Origin: Gemmatimonadota bacterium | Lineage (GTDB): Bacteria > Gemmatimonadota > Gemmatimonadetes > Longimicrobiales > RSA9 | DNA: 64,000 nt | Assembly (NCBI GenBank): GCA_039715185.1 | Contig: JBDLIA010000009.1 | Location: forward strand, 1-64,000 | Reading direction: 5' to 3' | Part shown: positions 1-42,916 of the stretch, one piece after another | Position numbering within the stretch: the stretch's first letter is position 1 | Layout of the letters: the number at the start of each line of letters is the position of its first letter | Program-made: the position numbers and the translations under genes | The notes under the pieces: generated by a model | Database searches by the model: none | Told to the model about the DNA's origin: nothing | Seen by the model: only the letters and a program-made list of their open reading frames with translations

Positions 1-333
1 TACCGTGTCGCGAAGGTTGGGGCGGCTGCCCCCGCCGCGCTCGGGCTTGTCGTAGGTCTTCGGCCGCACGCTGGCAGCCAGCCGCCGCGCGTCCGCCTTG
101 CCCTGAGTAGGCGCGAGCACGTCCGCGGCGGCGCACTCCAGCAGGACACGCCGCGCGGGGTCGTCTTCGGCCGCGAGGGCAGCCTTCAGGCGGTTCAGGA
201 ACGCGAGCACCGCCTCGCTCGGCGGGTCGGCTCCAAGCGTGCCGCCCCCGCAGGAGCGGATAACGTCGGAGATGGGCTCCTCGGCGCGCACCACGCGCAG
301 GTGGGTCGGGGTGCCGCCGGTGGTGACGCTCAC
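1..333 (-). CDS. Hypothetical protein of the mobile element, 3' end outside window
   Basis: An open frame of 111 codons runs from a GTG at 333 off the left edge of the window with no stop. The GTG overlaps the TGA of the gene before it in a GTGA arrangement, the coupling style used throughout the window, which is the main reason to call it a gene. The visible part is hydrophilic and ends in a Gly/Arg/Lys-rich stretch. I recognise no family. It is probably part of the accessory gene set of the integrated element whose integrase lies at 1435-2622. An alternative is a fortuitous open frame in high-GC DNA. Confidence 0.5.
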   Translation of the reverse strand, partial: MSVTTGGTPTHLRVVRAEEPISDVIRSCGGGTLGADPPSEAVLAFLNRLKAALAAEDDPARRVLLECAAADVLAPTQGKADARRLAASVRPKTYDKPERGGGSRPNLRDTV

Positions 334-530
334 TCTGCCAGCTCGTGGAGGGCCGTGGAGGCGAGGCCGTAGAGGCGCCGGGACAGCCAACGCGCGTTGA
401 GCAGGTGTAGCTCTTCGCGGTCGGCCAGGTTCGGCTCGGCGGCCGCCAGGGGGTTATGGCGGGCGTACTCCTCGAGCAGGAGCGCGCAGTCCACGACAGA
501 GGCGAGCGCCTCGGCCGCTGCCTGGTTCAC
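330..530 (-). CDS. Small hypothetical protein of the mobile element
   Basis: A 66-residue product is predicted from GTG at 530, which overlaps the TGA of the HTH gene (GTGA at 530-527). A longer in-frame ATG at 584 lies inside that gene and is less likely. The sequence is soluble and Ala/Leu-rich, probably helical, with no signal peptide or membrane segment. Its own stop overlaps the GTG of the next gene. It sits in a coupled three-gene cassette led by an AlpA-like DNA-binding protein. No family recognised. Confidence 0.5.
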   Translation of the reverse strand: MNQAAAEALASVVDCALLLEEYARHNPLAAAEPNLADREELHLLNARWLSRRLYGLASTALHELAE

Positions 531-745
531 GCCGCCCTCGGGCCTGGATCGGCCGTGCTGGTGCGTACGCGCTCGGCGGCCCACGCCTCGAGGTCCGCGA
601 CGCGGTATCGGACGCAGCGCGAAGAGATGCGGACGTGGGGCGGCCCGTCGCCGCGGCTCCGCCAGACGGCCAGCGTTCGGGGTTGGAGGCCGAGCGCTGC
701 GGCTGCGTCGCGCTCGTCAACGAGGATGGTGGTTGCAGCGGTCAT
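527..745 (-). CDS. AlpA/excisionase-like helix-turn-helix protein
   Basis: This 72-residue protein has the layout of AlpA/MerR-type excisionase-like regulators: a short N-terminal segment, then residues about 16-52 forming a winged helix-turn-helix (AAALGLQPRTLAVWR, then RVADLEAWAAER). Such proteins bind DNA as Xis factors or as activators of integrase and excision genes on integrated elements (family knowledge). The start is supported by an AGGAGA ribosome-binding site 7 bases upstream of the ATG. It leads a coupled operon with the two downstream small genes. Two direct repeats GCACGGT spaced 10 bp lie just upstream (784-800) and could be its operator. The exact target is not known. Confidence 0.75.
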   Translation of the reverse strand: MTAATTILVDERDAAAALGLQPRTLAVWRSRGDGPPHVRISSRCVRYRVADLEAWAAERVRTSTADPGPRAA

Positions 746-783
746 CGTGCTTTCTCCTGCGGCAATGAGCTACGGTCACTGTC

Positions 784-800
784 GCACGGTAATGCACGGT
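784..800. promoter_or_regulatory. Candidate operator: two GCACGGT direct repeats, 10-bp period
   Basis: GCACGGT occurs at 784-790 and 794-800, exactly one helical turn apart, about 40 bp upstream of the excisionase-like gene that reads leftwards from 745. Direct repeats on one helix face are a common layout for small winged-HTH/Xis proteins. Binding is inferred from position only. Confidence 0.35.
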
Positions 801-856
801 GGTCGGCAATTGCTCTGGCTTGCCTAGTTTTTTTGTGTCTTCTATCTCGGTTTGGG

Positions 857-1438
857 CTAACGGATCGACCAGGACAGCCCCGGGCGTGCGGCACGCACCT
901 TGTTCTGGACCGAACGGACCGAGAGGCCGTAACGCTTCCCGACGCGTCTACAAACGGCTGTCCAGCTGAGAGCGGGGTGCCGCCAATGCATGACCTCAAC
1001 CTCGTCGGCCAATGCGTCCGCAGGCGGACCCTTTCGGCTCGCGAAGCCTCCTGCCGCTCGATGCTTCTGCTGCTGTCGTTCCTTCTCGGCCAAGGGCCGC
1101 TCCAGCCGTAGTGCCCGCTTGGCGTGGTAGAGATGCGGGTGTGACTGGTCGATGCCATTCTGGAGCCCGATCCACAGGGCGTAGCGGGCCGCATTCCACG
1201 CGTCACCCGCTCGCGCCAGCCGGAGGAGGACGGGCGCGGTCAGAAGGTGCTCTTCCGCCCGCTTCCGCTGGCTGTAGCGCTCGTCCTCCGGATTCTCCGG
1301 CATTCCGCGCTGCTCCTGGTCCCTGACAAACGCTATGGCCTCCTCGGCGCCCTCCGTCCACCCCGCGAGGATGTTGCGCAGGGCCTCCTCCGCGTCGTCA
1401 GGCGGGAGAGGCTGCAGCCAGTGAGGACGGCGGTTCAT
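857..1438 (-). CDS. Hypothetical element protein with C-terminal HTH-like segment
   Basis: A 193-residue product from ATG 1438, overlapping the integrase stop (ATGA), so it is the second gene of the integrase transcript. The same reading frame stays open upstream inside the integrase gene, but that part is a shadow. The protein is hydrophilic and charged, with an acidic N-terminal third. Residues about 145-180 (LSWTAVCRRVGKRYGLSVRS) look like a helix-turn-helix of the kind in phage or transposon regulators. Function unknown; a DNA-binding accessory to integration or regulation is an inference from the context. Confidence 0.6.
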   Translation of the reverse strand: MNRRPHWLQPLPPDDAEEALRNILAGWTEGAEEAIAFVRDQEQRGMPENPEDERYSQRKRAEEHLLTAPVLLRLARAGDAWNAARYALWIGLQNGIDQSHPHLYHAKRALRLERPLAEKERQQQKHRAAGGFASRKGPPADALADEVEVMHWRHPALSWTAVCRRVGKRYGLSVRSVQNKVRAARPGLSWSIR

Positions 1439-2622
1439 GCTCCCGCCCCGTTCACGACCGCCATAAGACGGGCGCCATGTTGTTCGAGCGCTTCGCGTGA
1501 AGCGTCCTGCGCCAGGCGCGCGTAGATCGCGGTTGCGGCCACGTCGCCGGGTGCGTGCCCGAGCACCTGTCCGATGACCTGGAGGCTGACCCCAGCCGTC
1601 GCCATCCAGGAGCCCACGGTCCTGCGGAGGTCGTGCAGGGTCACGTCCTCGCATCCCGCCTCCGCGCGGACGCGGCGCCAGCTCTTGTCTATCGACGTGA
1701 GGGCGGACCCGCGGCTGCGGCCCGGAAAGACGTGCGGGTTTCCGGCCTGGCGGGGGAGTTGCTCGAGGATCTCCACCGCGGGCGCCGAGAGGTAGACCGA
1801 ATCGACATCGCCGCCCTTCCGCACCACGCGCCAGCGCCGGGCCTCCAGGTCGATGTCCGACCACTCGGAGCGGAGCAGTTCGGAGCGCCGTAGGCCCGTC
1901 AGCAGGAACAGGCGCAGAGCCGCCTTGATGTAGATGTTCGGCTCGGCGTCGATCGCCTCCATCAGGCGCGGCATCTCCTTCGGCGTGACGTAGCGCTCGC
2001 GGTTCCTTTCCTTGAACGCCTTCACTCCGCGCGAGCCGTGGCGGTCGAGTGTGGCGGGGTTGGCGCGGCCTTCGGGGAGCTCGCCCCACGCGATCGCCTT
2101 GCTGAACATCGCTCGCGCGACCTGCAGCACGCGGTTGGCCTCTACCGGGGTGCGTGCACCGATGCGCGCGTGGAGGGCGGCTAGGTCCGTTCGCGTCACG
2201 TCCGCCAGACGCAGGTGGCCGATGGCGGGAATGAGATGCTTCTCCAGCCGACGCCTATCCTCCCTCCACGAGCCTGGCCGGTGCGGCTTCGCGTGCTCGC
2301 TGATGTAGCGCTCGGCGAACGCGCGCACGTCGTCCGGCTTCGGCCCGCGGAGGGCTGCCACGGGGTCGCCGCCGTCGCCGACCTCCACCAGCGCCTTCCG
2401 CGCGCGGGCGCGCGCTTGGTCGAGCGTCAGGACACCGTACTTGCCGAGCGTCAGCAGCCGGGTGCGACCGGAGGGGGTGCGGTAGCGTAGGACGAACGCC
2501 TTGCGGCCGGTGGGATACACGCGCAGCCCGAAGCCGGGAATCTGTCCGTCGTAGGCGATTTGCTGGGCTGGGCCGGCGGGGTCATACTCAAGGGCTTGGA
2601 TGCCGCGCTTTGTGAGGCCCAC
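1435..2622 (-). CDS. Tyrosine recombinase/integrase of a tRNA-Pro-integrated element
   Basis: The 395-residue protein has the P4/tRNA-type integrase layout: an arm-binding (DUF4102-like) N-terminus at about residues 1-90, a core-binding SAM-like domain at about 100-190, and a catalytic domain at about 210-375. Catalytic residues are visible: Arg245 (TGLRRSE), His330-x-x-Arg333 (HDLRR), His356 (LGH) and nucleophile Tyr367. The GTG start at 2622 is chosen because AGGAGG lies 6 bases upstream; a longer frame to 2715 has no such site. It catalyses site-specific integration and excision. The gene lies about 160 bp from the tRNA-Pro 3' fragment and reads away from it, so the element's attachment site and integrase are adjacent. 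The family is clear; the active state is not tested. Confidence 0.93.
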   Translation of the reverse strand: MGLTKRGIQALEYDPAGPAQQIAYDGQIPGFGLRVYPTGRKAFVLRYRTPSGRTRLLTLGKYGVLTLDQARARARKALVEVGDGGDPVAALRGPKPDDVRAFAERYISEHAKPHRPGSWREDRRRLEKHLIPAIGHLRLADVTRTDLAALHARIGARTPVEANRVLQVARAMFSKAIAWGELPEGRANPATLDRHGSRGVKAFKERNRERYVTPKEMPRLMEAIDAEPNIYIKAALRLFLLTGLRRSELLRSEWSDIDLEARRWRVVRKGGDVDSVYLSAPAVEILEQLPRQAGNPHVFPGRSRGSALTSIDKSWRRVRAEAGCEDVTLHDLRRTVGSWMATAGVSLQVIGQVLGHAPGDVAATAIYARLAQDASREALEQHGARLMAVVNGAGA

Positions 2623-2712
2623 GGGGCGCCTCCTGTCGGGAGAGCAGCTAGTCGTTCGAGTGCGCGGTGAGTGCGCAAAATGAATGTAAAACCAGGTAAG
2701 GGTCGGGCACAA

Positions 2713-2758
2713 CAAAAGCTGGCAAAAGCGCTACAGACGGTAGCTTACTGCCCTTTTG
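2713..2758. promoter_or_regulatory. Candidate integrase arm-type sites beside the attachment site
   Basis: CAAAAGC occurs at 2713-2719 and again at 2723-2729, a 10-bp period, and CTTTTG at 2753-2758 is its inverted partner. Between them is the small hairpin GCTAC-AGACG-GTAGC (2730-2744). This lies between the integrase start and the tRNA-Pro fragment, exactly where arm-type sites or the integrase promoter of such elements are usually found. Assignment is inferred from layout. Confidence 0.4.
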
Positions 2759-2782
2759 TGGGGGTGTGGTAAACCTAGGAAA

Positions 2783-2830
2783 ATCTGCTTTGGGAGCAGG
2801 GGGTCGCCGGTTCGAATCCGGCCGCCCCGA
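2783..2830 (+). other. Attachment site: displaced 3' part of tRNA-Pro (UGG)
   Basis: The sequence from 2783 to 2830 is the 3' part of a tRNA-Pro: anticodon stem and 7-base loop with TGG at the anticodon positions, a variable region, a perfect T arm (GCCGG-TTCGAAT-CCGGC) and a 3' acceptor strand CGCCCCG plus discriminator A. The expected 5' acceptor CGGGGCG and a proper D arm are missing upstream; only a vague G-rich resemblance remains. This is what an element integrated in a tRNA gene leaves at the far end. The intact tRNA-Pro should lie beyond the left edge, which would make 1 to about 2830 element DNA. Confidence 0.75.
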
Positions 2831-2911
2831 CTTGAGATGGACTCCGCGCCGCATACCTGGTGAGCCCATCCTGCGTGCGCACTGAGCGAGCCGAGTGAGA
2901 AACGGGACAGC

Positions 2912-3355
2912 ATGATCGACCTTACCATCTACGCAGCCGGCGAAATCCATTCCGACTGGCGCGACGAGTTGCGGGCGGCGCTCGAGGAGCGCGGGGTCGA
3001 CGCCGACGTCGTCGGTCCGCAGGAGGACCACGAGCGCTCGGACGACATCGGCGAGGCGATCCTCGGGGAGCAGGCGAATCCGCGCTCTCGAGACATCGAA
3101 GGAGCGCGCGTCAATACGCTTCGAACGCGGGTGCTGCTGGGACGCGCGGACCTCGTGGTCGCCTACTTCGGGCCCACGTACAAGCAGTGGAACACGGCGG
3201 CCGACGCGGGCTGGGCGCTCGCCGCAGGGCTGCCCGTTCTGCTCGTAAGAGCGCAGGAGCACGTGCACGCGCTGAAGGAACTCGACGCGCTCGTGTCGCT
3301 CGCCGTGGAGACGCTCGAGGAGGCCGCCGAGGCGATCGCCTACATCCTCGAGTAG
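2912..3355 (+). CDS. ytoQ: YtoQ family protein (nucleoside 2-deoxyribosyltransferase-like fold)
   Basis: The 147-residue protein matches the YtoQ family: an N-terminal LTIYAAGEIHSDWRDEL, a central IGEAILGEQANP, and YFGPTYKQWNTAADAGWA followed by a Leu/Val-rich strand and a C-terminal helix. YtoQ belongs to the nucleoside 2-deoxyribosyltransferase superfamily (family knowledge), but the physiological reaction of YtoQ itself is not established, so the substrate is left open. No signal peptide or membrane segment. It is a single gene between the element attachment site and the tRNA cluster and is the first host gene after the integrated element. Confidence 0.85.
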   Translation: MIDLTIYAAGEIHSDWRDELRAALEERGVDADVVGPQEDHERSDDIGEAILGEQANPRSRDIEGARVNTLRTRVLLGRADLVVAYFGPTYKQWNTAADAGWALAAGLPVLLVRAQEHVHALKELDALVSLAVETLEEAAEAIAYILE

Positions 3356-3418
3356 CGCGACGGCAGTGGCCGGGTTCGCGCCGGGCGCAAGGCCGCCGGC
3401 CAGGCCCAGCGAAATCCC

Positions 3419-3446
3419 TTGACAGCCTTGGAGAAAGCCTTATGGT
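3419..3446 (+). promoter_or_regulatory. Sigma-70-type promoter for the tRNA cluster
   Basis: TTGACA (3419-3424), a 16-base spacer and TATGGT (3441-3446) form a near-consensus housekeeping promoter. The predicted transcript start is about 46 bases upstream of tRNA-Arg, and no protein gene intervenes, so it most likely drives the Arg-His-Lys tRNA cluster. Confidence 0.7.
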
Positions 3447-3498
3447 GAAGGGCTTCCGTTGGGCCGTCGTATGGCAAAGGCGGTCGTCGGAGGTGCTC

Positions 3499-3573
3499 GC
3501 GCCCGTAGCTCAGCCTGGATAGAGCAGCGGCCTTCTAAGCCGCGGGTCATAGGTTCAAATCCTATCGGGCGCA
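3499..3573 (+). tRNA. tRNA-Arg (UCU)
   Basis: A full 75-nt cloverleaf: acceptor GCGCCCG pairs with CGGGCGC, D arm GCTC...GAGC, anticodon stem GCGGC/GCCGC with loop CTTCTAA (anticodon TCT), T arm ATAGG-TTCAAAT-CCTAT, discriminator A. CCA is not encoded. It reads arginine AGA (and AGG by wobble). First gene of the three-tRNA cluster. Confidence 0.97.
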
Positions 3574-3652
3574 TCCTTTGACTTGGCGGGCCGCGGCAGG
3601 ACGAAGGGAGCGCGAGGGAAGCGCGACTCTGGCCCCGCTGCGCGGGACACAT

Positions 3653-3727
3653 GGTGGGCGTAGCTCAGTCGGTTAGAGCGCCAGGTTGTGGTCCTGGAGG
3701 TCGCCGGTTCGATTCCGGTCGCCCACC
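3653..3727 (+). tRNA. tRNA-His (GUG)
   Basis: A full cloverleaf: acceptor GTGGGCG/CGCCCAC, anticodon stem CCAGG/CCTGG with loop TTGTGGT (anticodon GTG), T arm GCCGG-TTCGATT-CCGGT. The histidine identity pair is encoded: an extra G at 3653 opposite discriminator C at 3727. CCA is not encoded. Second gene of the cluster. Confidence 0.97.
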
Positions 3728-3735
3728 CTGAGAGA

Positions 3736-3753
3736 CGTGCCGGAAACGGCACG
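3736..3753 (+). other. GAAA-tetraloop hairpin between tRNA-His and tRNA-Lys
   Basis: CGTGCCG (3736-3742), loop GAAA, and CGGCACG (3747-3753) make a perfect 7-bp stem with a GNRA tetraloop in the 38-nt spacer between two tRNAs. It may guide processing of the polycistronic tRNA precursor. It has no T-tract, so it is not a convincing terminator. Confidence 0.5.
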
Positions 3754-3765
3754 CGCAACGTGCCC

Positions 3766-3838
<73 letters not shown>

Positions 3839-3854
3839 CTAGCTTTCTCACGGA

Positions 3855-3885
3855 CCCCGCGCGGAGCACGCTCGCTCCGCCGGGG
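3855..3885 (+). terminator. Terminator-like hairpin after the tRNA cluster
   Basis: CCCCG-C-GCGGAG, an 8-base loop, then CTCCGC-CGGGG gives an 11-bp GC stem with one bulged base, 16 bases past tRNA-Lys. The following bases (CTCGTTCGTCTG) are only moderately T-rich. Termination is inferred from position and stem strength. Confidence 0.5.
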
Positions 3886-3955
3886 CTCGTTCGTCTGCAC
3901 CGTCCAGCGCCCACCGCGCTTGGCGCCCCGGAGGCCGTCGCGGCTACTCTTCCGT

Positions 3956-4873
3956 ATGCCTGAATCCACCGACCGAGCTCCCACCCGCGCTGGTCACGTC
4001 GCGCTGGTCGGCATTCCCAACGTGGGCAAGTCCACCCTGATGAACGCGCTGCTGGGCGAAAAGCTCAGCATCACGACCGCCAAGGAGCAGACGACCCGCC
4101 AGCGCGTGACCGGCATCCTCACCCGGCCGGCGTTCCAGGCTGTGTTCGTGGATACTCCGGGGCTGCTGGAGCCGCGCTACCTGCTGCACGAGGCTATGCT
4201 CGGCGAGGCGCTCGCGAGCCTCCGCGACGCGGACGTCATCGTCCTCATCCTGGACGCCACGCGCCCGGCGCAGACGCTGCCGCCAACCGAGTCTCTCGAC
4301 CAGGTGCTGGCGCGCCCCGAGCGCGTCATCGGCGTGGTCAACAAGAGCGACGTGGCCTCTCCCGCGGATGTCGCGAGGCTCGCCGAGTGGGTGGGCGAGC
4401 GCGCCGGGAGCGACGCCGTCGTCGTTTCGGCGACCCGCGGCAACGGCTTGCCCGAGCTGGAGAGGCGCATAGCGGAGGGTTTGCCCGCATCGCCCTTTCT
4501 GTATCCCGAAGATGAGATCGCGGTACAGCCCATGCGGTTCTTCGTGGAGGAGCTGATCCGCGAGACCGTCTTCGAGCGCTACCACCAGGAGATTCCGTAC
4601 AGCGTGGCGGTGCAGGTGGAGGAGTACCGCGAAGGCACCGACCCGCTCTACATTCGGGCGACCATCTACGTGGAGAGAGAGACGCAGAAGCAGATTCTCA
4701 TCGGCGCCAAGGGAGCCGGGATCCGCGACCTGGGGACGGCCGCGCGGCGTAAGATCCAAGCGTTCGTGGGCGAGCGTGTGTACCTTGACCTCTGGACCAA
4801 GGTCCTGCCACGCTGGCGCAAGCGGGAAACCGCGCTCAACCGCCTCGGGCACGCGCCACCGGGGCAACGGTAA
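3956..4873 (+). CDS. era: GTPase Era, small-subunit ribosome assembly
   Basis: 305 residues from the ATG at 3956; an in-frame GTG at 3920 would add 12 residues that other Era proteins do not need. The GTPase domain shows G1 GIPNVGKS (residues 19-26), a switch region TTRQRVTG, G3 DTPG, G4 NKSD and G5 SAT. The C-terminal KH domain carries the usual FVEELIRE and a GxxGxxI-type loop [12 protein letters not shown]. Era binds 16S rRNA near its 3' end during 30S maturation (family knowledge). Length and domain order are normal. It is followed 25 bases later by the Trm112-like gene. Confidence 0.96.
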
Positions 4874-13050: not shown

Positions 13051-15531
13051 ATGAATTACAACTTCACGGATCGAGTGCGGAAGGTGCTGGCGATGGCCCG
13101 CGAAGAGGCGATCCGTCTGCAGCACGACTACGTCGGCACGGAGCACATACTCCTCGGCCTGATTCGCGAGGGCGAGGGCGTCGCGGCCGCTGTCCTCATG
13201 AACCTCAACGTGGATCTCGACCAGGTGCACGAGCGCGTCGAGGGTGAGGTCCGCAAGGGCAAGGCGACCATCGCGTTGGGGGAGCTCCCCTATACCTCCC
13301 GGGCCAAGAAGGTCCTGGAGTACGCGATGGCCGAGGCACGGGAGCTCAGCCATTCATACGTCGGCACGGAGCATCTCCTGCTGGGATTGCTCCGCGAGGA
13401 ACGCGGCATCGCGGCGCAGGTGCTCAACGCCCTGGGCGTTACGCTCGAAGAGGCGCGGGCGCAGACGCAGAAGCTTCTGGGCAGCGATCTCGACGCCACG
13501 CCCGCGGGGGCCGGCGCGGGCGCCGGTCAGTCCAGCGCGCCCTCCAAGACCGACAAGAAGTCCAAGACCCCGGCGCTCGACCACTTCTGCCGGGACCTGA
13601 CCGAGCTGGCCCGCAAGGGCGAGCTGGACCCGACGATCGGCCGCGAGCCCGAAATCGAGCGGGTGACCGAAGTGCTCTCGCGCCGCAAGAAGAACAACCC
13701 GGTGCTGATCGGCGAGCCGGGCGTCGGCAAGACCGCCATCGTGGAAGGGCTGGCGCAGCTCATCTCGCGCGGAGAAGTCGCCGATAGCCTGTCCGACCAC
13801 CGCGTCCTGGCGCTCGACATGGCCGCCGTGATAGCGGGGACGAAGTACCGCGGCCAGTTCGAAGAGCGGCTGAAGGCGATCATGAACGAGATCGCCCAGA
13901 ACCAGGGCGTGATTCTCTTCATCGATGAGTTGCACACGCTGGTCGGAGCGGGGGCCGCGGAGGGCGCCATCGACGCGTCCAACATGCTCAAGCCGGCGCT
14001 CGCGCGCGGGGAGCTACAGTGCGTGGGCGCTTCCACGCTGAATGAGTATCGCAAGTACATCGAAAAGGACGGCGCGCTGGAACGCCGTTTCCAGACGGTG
14101 ATCGTCGACCCGCCCTCGATCGACCAGACGCTGGAGATCCTGAAGGGACTGCGAAAGCACTACGAGGACCACCACAAGGTCGTGGTTCCGGACGAGTCGC
14201 TGGCCGCCGCCGCCAAGCTGTCGGAACGCTACATCACCGACCGTTTTCTTCCGGACAAGGCGATTGACGTCATCGATGAGGCCGGCGCGAGGGCGCGGCT
14301 CGCCACGCAGGTACCGCCCCCCGAGGTCGCCGAGCTGAAGCAGGAGATGGAGACCCTCGCCGAGTCCAAGGACGAGGCCATCCGGGATCAGGATTTCGAG
14401 AAGGCCGCCGAGCTACGCGACAAGGAAAAAGATCTCCAGGACCGCATGCGCAGCGAGCAGGAGACCTGGGAGGAAGAGCGGCGCACGCACCGCCCCGTCA
14501 TCTCCGAGGAGGATGTCGCGTTCATCGTCAGCCGCTGGACGGGCGTGCCGGTGACCCGGTTGCAGGAAGCGGAGTCCGAGCGGCTGGTCCGCATGGAAGA
14601 AGAACTCCACGAGCGGATCGTGGGGCAGGAGGAGGCGATTCGCGCGATCAGCAGGTCCATTCGGCGCAGCCGAGCAGGGCTCAAGGATCCGCGGCGCCCC
14701 ATCGGCAGCTTCATCTTCAGCGGCCCCACGGGCGTCGGCAAGACGGAGCTGGCGCGCGCGCTGGCGGAGTTCCTGTTCGCCGACCGCGACGCGCTCATCC
14801 GCGTGGACATGAGCGAGTACATGGAGAAGTTCTCGGTGTCACGACTGATCGGGGCGCCCCCGGGATACGTCGGTTACGAAGACTCCGGGGCGTTGACCAA
14901 GGCCGTGCGCCGCAAGCCGTATTCGGTGGTCCTTCTGGACGAGATCGAGAAGGCGCACCCGGACGTGTTCAATATCCTGTTGCAGGTGCTGGACGAGGGC
15001 CATCTCACGGACAACTACGGCCGCGTCATCGACTTCAAGAACACCGTCATCATCATGACGTCCAACCTGGGCGCCCGAGACATCAGCAAGGGTGGCACGC
15101 TGGGCTTCCAGTCCGATTCCTCGGCGGGTTCGTACGAGATCATGCAGGAGAAGGTCAAGGAGGAGATCGAGCGGGCCTTCAATCCGGAATTCCTGAACCG
15201 TGTCGACGACGCCATCGTCTTCCACCCGCTCAGCCGGGAGCAGATCGGCCAGATCGTGCACATCATGCTGGACGAGGTTCGGACCCGGCTCCAGGACGAG
15301 GCGTTGAGCCTCACGTTGACGGAAGAGGCCGTCGACTTCCTCGTCGAGCGCGGGTACGACCAGACCTTCGGCGCGCGGCCGCTGCGCCGGGCCATCCAGC
15401 GTCACCTCGAGGACCCGCTCTCGGAGAAGATCCTCATGAGCGAGTACTCGGCGGGCGACGAGGTCGAGGTCGACATCTCGGACGATGGCGACGCGCTGGC
15501 CTTCCGGGTGCCCTCCTCGAGTCGCACCTGA
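13051..15531 (+). CDS. clpC: AAA+ unfoldase ClpC
   Basis: 826 residues with the full ClpC domain order: duplicated N-domain (about 1-145; paired [11 protein letters not shown] and [11 protein letters not shown]), a Gly/Ala/Ser linker (150-170), AAA-1 with Walker A GEPGVGKT (221-228), a UVR-containing middle domain (about 437-475), and AAA-2 with Walker A GPTGVGKT (558-565). It unfolds substrates, including arginine-phosphorylated proteins, for ClpP. No clpP is in the window. The ATG start gives the family N-terminus [12 protein letters not shown] exactly. Confidence 0.97.
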
Positions 15532-31370: not shown

Positions 31371-33206
31371 GTGAGCGCAACCTTCGACCCCCGCGGAAAA
31401 AGCCTCCCGGCGCGCCCCGGGGTCTACCTGTTCAAGGACCGACGCGGACGCATCCTGTACGTGGGGAAGGCCAAGTCCCTACGGGCGCGCGTGCGCGGCC
31501 ATTTCAATTCTGAAAGCACCACCTCGGCCAAGAATCGACAGATGCTCGCGCGCGTGGCCGACGTCGAGACGATCGTCGTGGCGAGCGAGGCCGAAGCGCT
31601 TCTTCTGGAAGCGAACCTCATCAAGGCGCACCACCCCCGCTTCAACATCCAGCTCCGGGACGACAAGCGATACCCGTACGTGAAGGTCACGCTCGCCGAG
31701 CCCTTCCCGCGCGTCCTCGTCACCCGCCGGGTCGAGAACGACGGCGCGCGATACTTCGGGCCGTACACGGACGTGGGCGCCCTGCGCCACGCGCTGGAGG
31801 TCATCAAGCGGGCGCACACGGTGCGCAGCTGTCGCTACGCCCTGCCAACCGAGCGGCCCGCCCGGCCCTGTCTCGACCACCACATCGGCCGCTGCGAGGC
31901 GCCCTGCGTGGGGCTTCAGACGCAAGCGGAATACGGCCGCATGATCGCGGAGGTAGTGGACGTGCTGGGCGGCCGCACGGGCGGGGTTCGCGGCCGCGTG
32001 GAGGCGGAGATGCGGGAATCGGCCGAGCGGCTCGACTTCGAGCGCGCCGCGGAGCGTCGCGACGTCCTCCAGGGTCTGGCCGCCATCGAGCGGCGCCAGC
32101 GAGCGCTGGACGTGCGCGGGGGAGACGTCGATGCTCTGGGGGTCGCACGCGACGGGGAGCGCGCGGCCGCCGTCCGTCTCCGCGTACGGGGCGGCAAGCT
32201 GCTCGGCAGGGAGGTGGACTTCTTCGAGAACGCGGACGAAGTCGACTCCGGCGGAGTGCTCGCCGCCGCCGCCACGCGCTTTTATCTGGGCCGCGGAGAG
32301 CACGGCGTCGATGACCTGCCCCGTGAGATCCTCGCTCCCGAGGAGTTCGAGGACCGCGCGGCGCTGGAGGAGATCCTGAACGAGCGGGGGGGACGGCGCC
32401 TGCGCGTTCGCGTGCCCCAGCGTGGGGCCAAGACCCGGTTGGTTCACCTCGCCGCTCAGAACGCGCGTCACCTGCTGGAGGAGAGGGCCGTCCTGCGTCC
32501 CGACGTCGGCGAGCGCGCGGAGGACGTTCTCTACGAGCTTCAGGAAGCCCTCGACCTGAAGGTGGTCCCTCGCCGCATCGTTTGCTTCGACGTCTCCCAC
32601 ACGCAGGGCACCGAGGTCGTAGCGAGCGCCGTGACCTTCGAGAACGGCGCCCCGCGCAAGGCCGGCTACCGGCGCTTTCGGATCCGCGGCGACTGGGGCA
32701 ACGACGACCTCCGGTCCATGGCGGAGGTGGTCGAGCGTTACATGCGGCGGCGCCTCGAGGAGGACGACACGCTGCCCGATCTCATGCTGATAGATGGCGG
32801 CAAGGGTCAGCTCCGCGCCGCGCTGAAAGCCGCCGTCTCCGCGGGAGCGGCGGACGTCGAAGCCGTCGCCCTGGCGAAGCGCGAAGAAGAGATTCACCGA
32901 ACGGGGGGGAGGGCGCCCGTCCGCCTGGCCGTCAGAAACCCCGCGCTGCGCCTGCTTCAGCGTGCGCGCGACGAGGCCCACCGGTTCGCGCACGGATACA
33001 ATCGCCGTCTGCGCGGGAAGCGGACGCTCAGGAGCAGCCTGTCGGAGGTGCCCGGAATAGGCCCTGCGCGTCAGCGGGCGCTGCTGGTCCAGTTCGGTAG
33101 CGTGTCGGCGATCCGGGCCGCCGCCGAGCAGGACATCGCCGCCATACCTGGCATCTCGCCCACGCTGGCACGCACGCTGAAGAGTCACCTGGAGCGCTCC
33201 GGCTGA
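31371..33206 (+). CDS. uvrC: Excinuclease ABC subunit C
   Basis: 611 residues from GTG 31371. GIY-YIG nuclease at the N-terminus (GVYLFKDRRGRILYVGKAKSLRARV), a Cys-containing region (ARPCLDHHIGRCEAPC), a UVR motif (about 205-240), the RNase H-like second nuclease domain (CFDVSHTQGTEVVAS, then LMLIDGGKGQLRAAL) and two C-terminal helix-hairpin-helix motifs (SEVPGIGPARQRALL; IAAIPGISPTLARTL). It makes both incisions in nucleotide excision repair. uvrA and uvrB are not in the window. Confidence 0.97.
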   Translation: MSATFDPRGKSLPARPGVYLFKDRRGRILYVGKAKSLRARVRGHFNSESTTSAKNRQMLARVADVETIVVASEAEALLLEANLIKAHHPRFNIQLRDDKRYPYVKVTLAEPFPRVLVTRRVENDGARYFGPYTDVGALRHALEVIKRAHTVRSCRYALPTERPARPCLDHHIGRCEAPCVGLQTQAEYGRMIAEVVDVLGGRTGGVRGRVEAEMRESAERLDFERAAERRDVLQGLAAIERRQRALDVRGGDVDALGVARDGERAAAVRLRVRGGKLLGREVDFFENADEVDSGGVLAAAATRFYLGRGEHGVDDLPREILAPEEFEDRAALEEILNERGGRRLRVRVPQRGAKTRLVHLAAQNARHLLEERAVLRPDVGERAEDVLYELQEALDLKVVPRRIVCFDVSHTQGTEVVASAVTFENGAPRKAGYRRFRIRGDWGNDDLRSMAEVVERYMRRRLEEDDTLPDLMLIDGGKGQLRAALKAAVSAGAADVEAVALAKREEEIHRTGGRAPVRLAVRNPALRLLQRARDEAHRFAHGYNRRLRGKRTLRSSLSEVPGIGPARQRALLVQFGSVSAIRAAAEQDIAAIPGISPTLARTLKSHLERSG

Positions 33207-42296: not shown

Positions 42297-42916
42297 GCGA
42301 CACGGCGGCTCCACCCATCAGGCGCGGACCCATGCGGCGCCTATACGACTGGGTCATCGGCTGGGCCGATCGTCCCGGAGGCGAGCGGGCGCTCGCTGGG
42401 CTGTCGTTCGCCGAGTCGTCTTTCTTTCCGATCCCGCCCGATCCGCTCCTGCTGGCGCTCTGCGTGGGCAGGCCGGCGCGCGCGCTCAGGTTCGCCGCGA
42501 TCTGCACCGTCGCGTCAGTTCTGGGCGGGGCCGCGGGTTACCTGATCGGCTGGGGCGCGTGGTCGGCGGTGGACACGTTCTTCTTCGACCACGTCCCGGG
42601 GGTCACGCCCGAGGCGTTCGAGCACGTGAAGGGGCTCTACGATCGCTACGGCTTCCTGGCCGTGTTCACCGCCGGGCTCACGCCCATCCCCTACAAGGTG
42701 TTCACGCTGTCGTCCGGAGCGTTCGGCATCAGCCCGCCCGTGTTCCTGCTCGCCAGCGTCCTCAGCCGGGGCCTCAGGTTCTTCGTGCTGGCCGCGCTGA
42801 TCAAGCGCTTCGGGGAGTCGATTCAGGCCTTCATAAACCGCTACTTCACGTGGCTGGCGTGGGCGTTCATCGTGCTGCTGGTGGCTGGTTTCCTGGCGAT
42901 CGAAGCGCTGCGCTGA
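42293..42916 (+). CDS. YqaA/DedA-family (VTT domain) membrane protein
   Basis: 207 residues from TTG 42293 (TTGA overlap with pcm); ATG 42332 is an alternative start. Features of the family are SFAESSFFPIPPDPLLLALCVG with the acidic and proline residues, GGAAGYLIGWGAW, YGFLAVFTAGLTPIPYKVFTLSSGAFG, and a C-terminal segment LAWAFIVLLVAGFLAIEAL. DedA/VTT proteins work in lipid scrambling or undecaprenyl phosphate transport; the exact substrate of YqaA types is not known. About five membrane segments. Confidence 0.9.
   Translation: MSDTAAPPIRRGPMRRLYDWVIGWADRPGGERALAGLSFAESSFFPIPPDPLLLALCVGRPARALRFAAICTVASVLGGAAGYLIGWGAWSAVDTFFFDHVPGVTPEAFEHVKGLYDRYGFLAVFTAGLTPIPYKVFTLSSGAFGISPPVFLLASVLSRGLRFFVLAALIKRFGESIQAFINRYFTWLAWAFIVLLVAGFLAIEALR

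Follow-up and report, generated by a model that had tools for sequence, protein, structure and literature searches.

Evidence for the right end of an integrative element at tRNA-Pro(TGG) in a Gemmatimonadota genome

Introduction

What placed a tyrosine integrase gene beside a fragment of a tRNA gene at the start of a contig, and which end of an integrated element does such an integrase occupy? The question is raised by contig C9 (JBDLIA010000009.1, 66785 bases) of a Gemmatimonadota bacterium, whose assembly (GCA_039715185.1) comprises 3.66 Mb in 252 contigs. Its place in this phylum is borne out by its RNase PH: among the 80 named loci retained as matches, the top four are labelled Gemmatimonadales, Gemmatimonadetes (twice) and Gemmatimonadota. 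The window analysed here is the 64,000-base stretch formed by bases 1-64000 of this contig; its base 1 is also base 1 of C9, where the contig end cuts through the element. The start of the window is, with high confidence, the right-hand end of an integrative element, either a genomic island or a remnant of one, that was inserted by its own tyrosine integrase into tRNA-Pro(TGG). Two copies of the recombination core, a complete integrase gene, chromosomal flanks that are paired in relatives, and both the filled and the unfilled state of the site in relatives were observed. The features at this boundary are as follows.

1435-2622, minus strand: tyrosine integrase, 395 amino acids, uninterrupted (Phage_integrase 3.2e-26; Arm-DNA-bind_3 5.7e-18; PHROG 1 integrase 1.9e-69)
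2623-2784, no strand: element arm separating the core from the integrase start (position only; related elements have similar spacing)
2785-2830, plus strand: displaced tRNA-Pro(TGG) 3' fragment, the attR core and right attachment site (46 bases, exact)
2831-3498, plus strand: chromosomal flank with a ytoQ-like gene (2912-3355; Nuc_deoxyri_tr3/YtoQ 1.5e-47), within the ancestral gap between tRNA-Pro and tRNA-Arg
3499-3839, plus strand: tRNA-Arg(TCT), tRNA-His(GTG) and tRNA-Lys(CTT), the ancestral right flank (tRNA calls, Rfam, order in relatives)

Two Halves of a tRNA-Pro Site

The fragment reproduces the last 46 bases of an intact tRNA-Pro(TGG) without a mismatch (46/46), running from the anticodon stem to the 3' end, with an E-value of 3.0e-17 against the bacterium's own genome (3.66 Mb). 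A 31-base pattern taken from the fragment and searched with up to two mismatches occurs twice in this genome, and the reversed control pattern gives 0 occurrences; by these searches, the 46-base repeat is not due to chance. A preliminary description had placed the fragment at 2783-2830 and expected a matching core of 48 bp. Fragment and matching core both exist, but are two bases shorter, with a true extent of 2785-2830 and a length of 46 bases. ARAGORN does not call the fragment as a tRNA, and Rfam assigns 34.3 bits to 2760-2830 (cut-off 29), versus 67-71 bits for three intact tRNAs nearby. This scored stretch combines the fragment with 25 element bases, and its full-length tRNA score lies above the Rfam cut-off, so that automatic annotation could call a tRNA gene here.

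The intact counterpart, which the preliminary description expected to the left of the window, was located at the end of another contig, C87 (13,697 bases). It is a 74-base tRNA-Pro(TGG) at 13624-13697 (G000:C87), and its last base is the last base of the contig. At an E-value of 1e-14 or better, only this tRNA and the window fragment match tRNA-Pro in the genome. RNase PH and RdgB are encoded upstream of tRNA-Pro on C87, while tRNA-Arg, -His and -Lys follow the fragment on C9.

The same neighbourhood was surveyed at 46 loci, 38 of which contain tRNA-Pro(TGG) (C87 and one locus in each of 37 relatives) and 8 of which do not. From 45 relatives, rows were left out for G045 (no match), G042 (tRNA-Pro(GGG)) and G022 (treated apart), and G271 was added for its integrase. 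RNase PH and/or RdgB precede tRNA-Pro(TGG) in 30 of the 37 relatives. A same-strand tRNA-Arg(TCT) follows tRNA-Pro within 64 bases in 13/37, after 307-478 bases in three and after 1.5-7.8 kb in six; in the remaining 15/37 it was not seen in the fetched stretch (36 to 13,369 bases), and in one of these, G016, the Arg and His genes lie upstream on the opposite strand. The closed state is represented by G006, a member of the same family, in which tRNA-Pro is followed after about 20 bases by Arg, His and Lys. The ancestral order shown by the relatives is RNase PH, RdgB, tRNA-Pro, tRNA-Arg, -His and -Lys. The left half of this conserved neighbourhood is on C87 and the right half on C9, so that the contigs resemble the two flanks of a single ancestral site opened at tRNA-Pro, and they may well border one insertion in this cell. 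The element DNA is absent from unfilled sites in the 13/37 relatives with tRNA-Arg no more than 64 bases past tRNA-Pro, a comparison drawn with other relatives rather than within the species itself. Across the survey, tRNA-Pro(TGG) between RdgB and tRNA-Arg is a recurrent insertion site in Gemmatimonadota.

Tyrosine integrases that use tRNA genes keep the tRNA intact, with the former 3' half as a marker of the far end of the inserted DNA. Here, a copy of the 3' half carried by the element would have recombined with the tRNA gene in the anticodon arm. The element-borne 3' half would now complete the working tRNA at the left (C87), and the original 3' half would have been displaced to the right end, at 2785-2830. 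A crossover in the anticodon arm is probable because the shared core begins at the anticodon stem. From its position, the arm at 2623-2784 is a putative arm-binding region for the integrase and may also hold its promoter. The integrase gene begins on the side of the displaced fragment, so it is presumably not read from the tRNA promoter.

The Integrase and the End It Occupies

The integrase reaches a PF00589 score of 92.6 against a cut-off of 27.1, and it contains the conserved boxes TGLRRSE at 242, LHDLRRT at 329, LGHAPG at 354 and AIYARL at 365, which we take to carry catalytic meaning. Its position at the displaced-fragment end, recognised in the preliminary description, is borne out by the coordinates of the two features. 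The same description regarded this arrangement as less usual, a view that does not hold within the integrase's own lineage, where most testable members are alike.

A search of 395 genomes of the phylum at an E-value of 1e-38 or better yielded nine matches in seven genomes, including the window genome itself. In 5/9 matches, a tRNA 3' fragment recognised by its T-arm motif lies on the opposite strand upstream of the integrase start, at a distance of about 140-230 bases (window 186, G220 191, G267 194, G063 C30 142 and G063 C51 approximately 210-228 bases); ARAGORN called no tRNA at these five places. The sixth match, in G271, is accompanied by a decayed fragment, and only 123 bases upstream of the integrase were on hand for G193. 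The fragments begin to match a complete tRNA in the anticodon arm, namely Pro(TGG) in the window, Val(TAC) in G220, Arg(CCG) in G063 C30 and Arg(ACG) in G267 (a doubtful partner), and the fragment of G063 C51, without a partner, was read by eye as Thr(TGT). The far side of the element is on one contig in G271 and G063, and on two contigs in the window genome and G220 (98% over 48 bases). Judged from these sequences, an integrase at the displaced-fragment end is common in this lineage.

In a tree of 11 integrases, which omits the one of G063 C51 and the second one of G177, the window integrase groups with its counterparts from G271 and G220 (84/95, drawn open), and the deep joins are weak. Distant relatives occur in 668 phage and 609 plasmid records, all below 60% identity. 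A search by peptide patterns, sensitive to close relatives alone, confirmed no relative in viral contigs or in contigs of named genomes.

In G063, a tandem array at tRNA-Arg(CCG) was seen (G063:C30:13861-42689; L107, L242). A fragment within 13861-13960, a second fragment at 32595-32658 and the intact tRNA-Arg(CCG) at 42613-42689 stand in line; about 10 kb with an integrase beside the intact tRNA are followed by about 18.6 kb with an integrase of the window lineage at the far fragment. By eye, the genes of the 18.6 kb portion look metabolic. A tentative and rather doubtful generalisation is that polarity is fixed across Gemmatimonadota: the window lineage would enter the anticodon arm of various tRNAs and take the displaced-fragment end, another lineage would take the intact end of the same gene, and both could stack without competing for position, giving orderly arrays and long-lived hotspots for defence and metabolic genes. 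G063 shows such stacking, and there are hints of it at tRNA-Pro. Several observations speak against such a rule. Neither integrase of G177 is accompanied by a T-arm motif in the DNA at hand (330 bases before the first), the G063 C51 integrase contains an in-frame TGA, and the candidate partner tRNA-Arg(ACG) in G267 was rejected as a misfit, matching at only 93% over 42 bases and with another tRNA directly after it. In addition, the integrase beside the intact tRNA-Arg of G063 C30 shows a weak match to the window integrase (33% over 171 amino acids), and the two polarities may therefore not belong to two wholly separate families.

Alternative Origins of the Fragment

Four points weigh against an insertion at this site. 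The ytoQ-like gene at 2912-3355 lies outside the core, and the insertion leaves it unexplained. On C87, RdgB is 8.4 kb upstream of tRNA-Pro, farther than in any surveyed relative in which RdgB was found. C87 and C9 are separate contigs, presumably connected through the element, whose left part did not turn up in the bin. Finally, bases 1-2784 have a G+C content of 69.1%, the same as the chromosome (69.1%), and hence carry no compositional sign of foreign origin.

This composition, together with a left element end that lies out of view, would also suit a tRNA pseudogene that a local duplication or a long-gone element left behind, with an adjacent integrase that belongs to no element still bounded here; the decay of the G271 fragment to 25 bases is a further point in its favour. 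We consider this origin improbable, as the two core copies agree at 100% of their 46 bases, the reading frame of the integrase is uninterrupted, and related elements at other tRNAs repeat this spacing and strand arrangement of fragment and integrase. Still less probable is a mis-binned or mis-assembled pair of contigs with C87 derived from another organism: the assembly has 252 contigs, C87 stops exactly at the tRNA end, and the same 46 core bases are present in the intact tRNA-Pro of G271, a different genus, so that identity alone cannot tie C87 to C9, but the two contigs have a similar G+C content (C87 70.0%, C9 69.1%), hold complementary halves of a conserved neighbourhood, and no further tRNA-Pro(TGG) match was found in the assembly. 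An assembly branch between alternative continuations could account for the stop of C87 at the tRNA end. Insertion by the element's own integrase is the reading that we retain.

Related Elements and Known Systems

The closest integrase relative found is that of G271 (43% over 400 amino acids), which lies between an intact tRNA-Pro and the 25-base remnant of the tRNA 3' part, followed by tRNA-Arg. In this genome, a tRNA-Pro 5' half that is cut in the anticodon arm precedes the intact tRNA-Pro by about 2.7 kb (L103:10604-10646), which points to a further rearrangement at the site.

The same target, tRNA-Pro(TGG), is used by elements of another integrase lineage in G018, G020, G022, G028 and G044. 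In contrast to the window element, their integrase stands beside the intact tRNA, ending about 50-56 bases downstream and pointing to it; G026 retains short pieces of such an integrase. Where the window integrase can be aligned to theirs at all, the identity is 26-30%. In G022, a genome in a single contig, the intact tRNA-Pro and a 44-base 3' fragment lie 20.9 kb apart, so that this element, like the one in the window, has a displaced 3' fragment (L097/L098, G022:C1 about 2445402-2466419), with its integrase about 50 bases from the intact tRNA. The best PADLOC matches within it are HmaA, PDC-S02, HmaB, HmaC, a SAVED-HNH effector, E1-E2 and a CBASS cyclase, and defence genes, which the preliminary description had named along with phage genes as possible cargo, were found only in this relative's element at tRNA-Pro. 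Beyond the fragment, a partial second integrase of the same lineage is a sign of an older insertion.

Elements of the pSAM2 type in actinomycetes also target tRNA-Pro, with a core that extends from the anticodon loop to the 3' end. Unlike in these elements, conjugative and replicative genes were not seen in the visible 2.8 kb of the window element.

In the consulted part of the Islander report, 3760 of 3919 islands have a 3' fragment and 2083 have an anticodon-centred attP (PMC4383910). The window element resembles the tRNA-gene islands described there, which possess a tyrosine integrase, an intact tRNA at one end and a same-orientation 3' fragment at the other. Here, too, the intact tRNA and the displaced fragment have the same orientation, which rests on the flanks as the two are on separate contigs; a tyrosine integrase lies inside, and the intervening DNA is missing from the unfilled site in relatives. 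It differs from those islands in that its ends are on two contigs, with the island length and the cargo beyond the visible end unseen. Both integrase positions are known from Pseudomonas fluorescens Pf-5, where, according to the portion of the genome report consulted, the integrase of prophage 04 adjoins tRNA-Pro and that of prophage 06 adjoins the putative attR, as in the window (PMC2647930). These prophages differ in that they reside in another host and carry phage-like cargo. Judged by titles and abstract openings, none of the papers listed on genomic islands and tRNA or prophages and integrases in Gemmatimonadota treats this tRNA-Pro site.

Genes at the Visible End

To the left of the integrase in the window, four further reading frames complete the visible part of the element.

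857-1438, minus strand: 193-amino-acid helical protein with a helix-turn-helix (HTH)-like C-terminal end (AlphaFold model)
527-745, minus strand: AlpA-like HTH protein (HTH_17 2.1e-8; PHROG 66 'excisionase and transcriptional regulator' 2.4e-9)
330-530, minus strand: 66-amino-acid open reading frame (ORF) with a 4-base overlap with the AlpA-like gene (PHROG 25435, 22 residues only, E 0.0016)
1-333, minus strand: ORF cut by the contig end, 111 amino acids visible (open frame; weak best matches, Pfam E 0.15, PHROG E 0.034)

All five genes are on the minus strand, with 4-base overlaps at three of the four junctions, and the order integrase, HTH-like, AlpA-like and two coupled ORFs agrees with the preliminary description. 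The AlpA-like protein is likely to be an excision factor or regulator and may steer excision of the element, which may be mobile now or have been so formerly. The 193-amino-acid protein is predicted to be all-helical, with an HTH-like C-terminal part modelled more confidently than the rest and a low overall confidence (AlphaFold from a single sequence; mean pLDDT 65.8, pTM 0.36, residues 141-180 in blocks of 80-92). It matches no Pfam, NCBIfam or PADLOC family (best PHROG E 0.39) and has 0 relatives in 50,697 phage records, 72,556 plasmid records, viral contigs and 389 other genomes of the phylum; it is thus confined to its own genome among the 390 genomes searched. The cut ORF belongs to no NCBIfam or PADLOC family and has no relatives in viral contigs or phage records. 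Within the visible 2.8 kb, beyond which the element continues past the contig end, Pfam and PHROG scans found no virion, packaging or phage replication genes, and a Pfam scan found no relaxase or transfer genes. A search of the bin for the rest of the element with the first 300 window bases returned only the self-match.

The Right Flank

The ytoQ-like gene, present in 7/60 relatives, separates the fragment from tRNA-Arg, where the equivalent gap measures at most 64 bases in 13/37 relatives. No second tRNA-Pro remnant was detected in 2831-3498, where the best score of 19 was matched by 98/300 shuffles. When ytoQ was used as a guide to the empty site, the stretches fetched around it in the seven relatives contained no tRNA gene. 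An era-like gene, which was named by eye from its sequence, directly follows tRNA-Lys (window 3839-3959). Upstream of era, 23S rRNA and 5S genes were found in 3/6 relatives scanned (L038, L043, L053) and nothing in the other three, and with era as a guide to the site, its contig ended less than 1 kb upstream in 21/29 relatives (counted by hand).

Significance

The element is of an ordinary, well-known type, and its insertion at tRNA-Pro is real. With it, one edge of a mobile element is set in a phylum that has received little study, at a tRNA-Pro(TGG) insertion site that is occupied by Hma and CBASS defence genes in one single-contig genome. A simple rule for locating the far end of related elements follows from the side on which integrases of this lineage usually stand.

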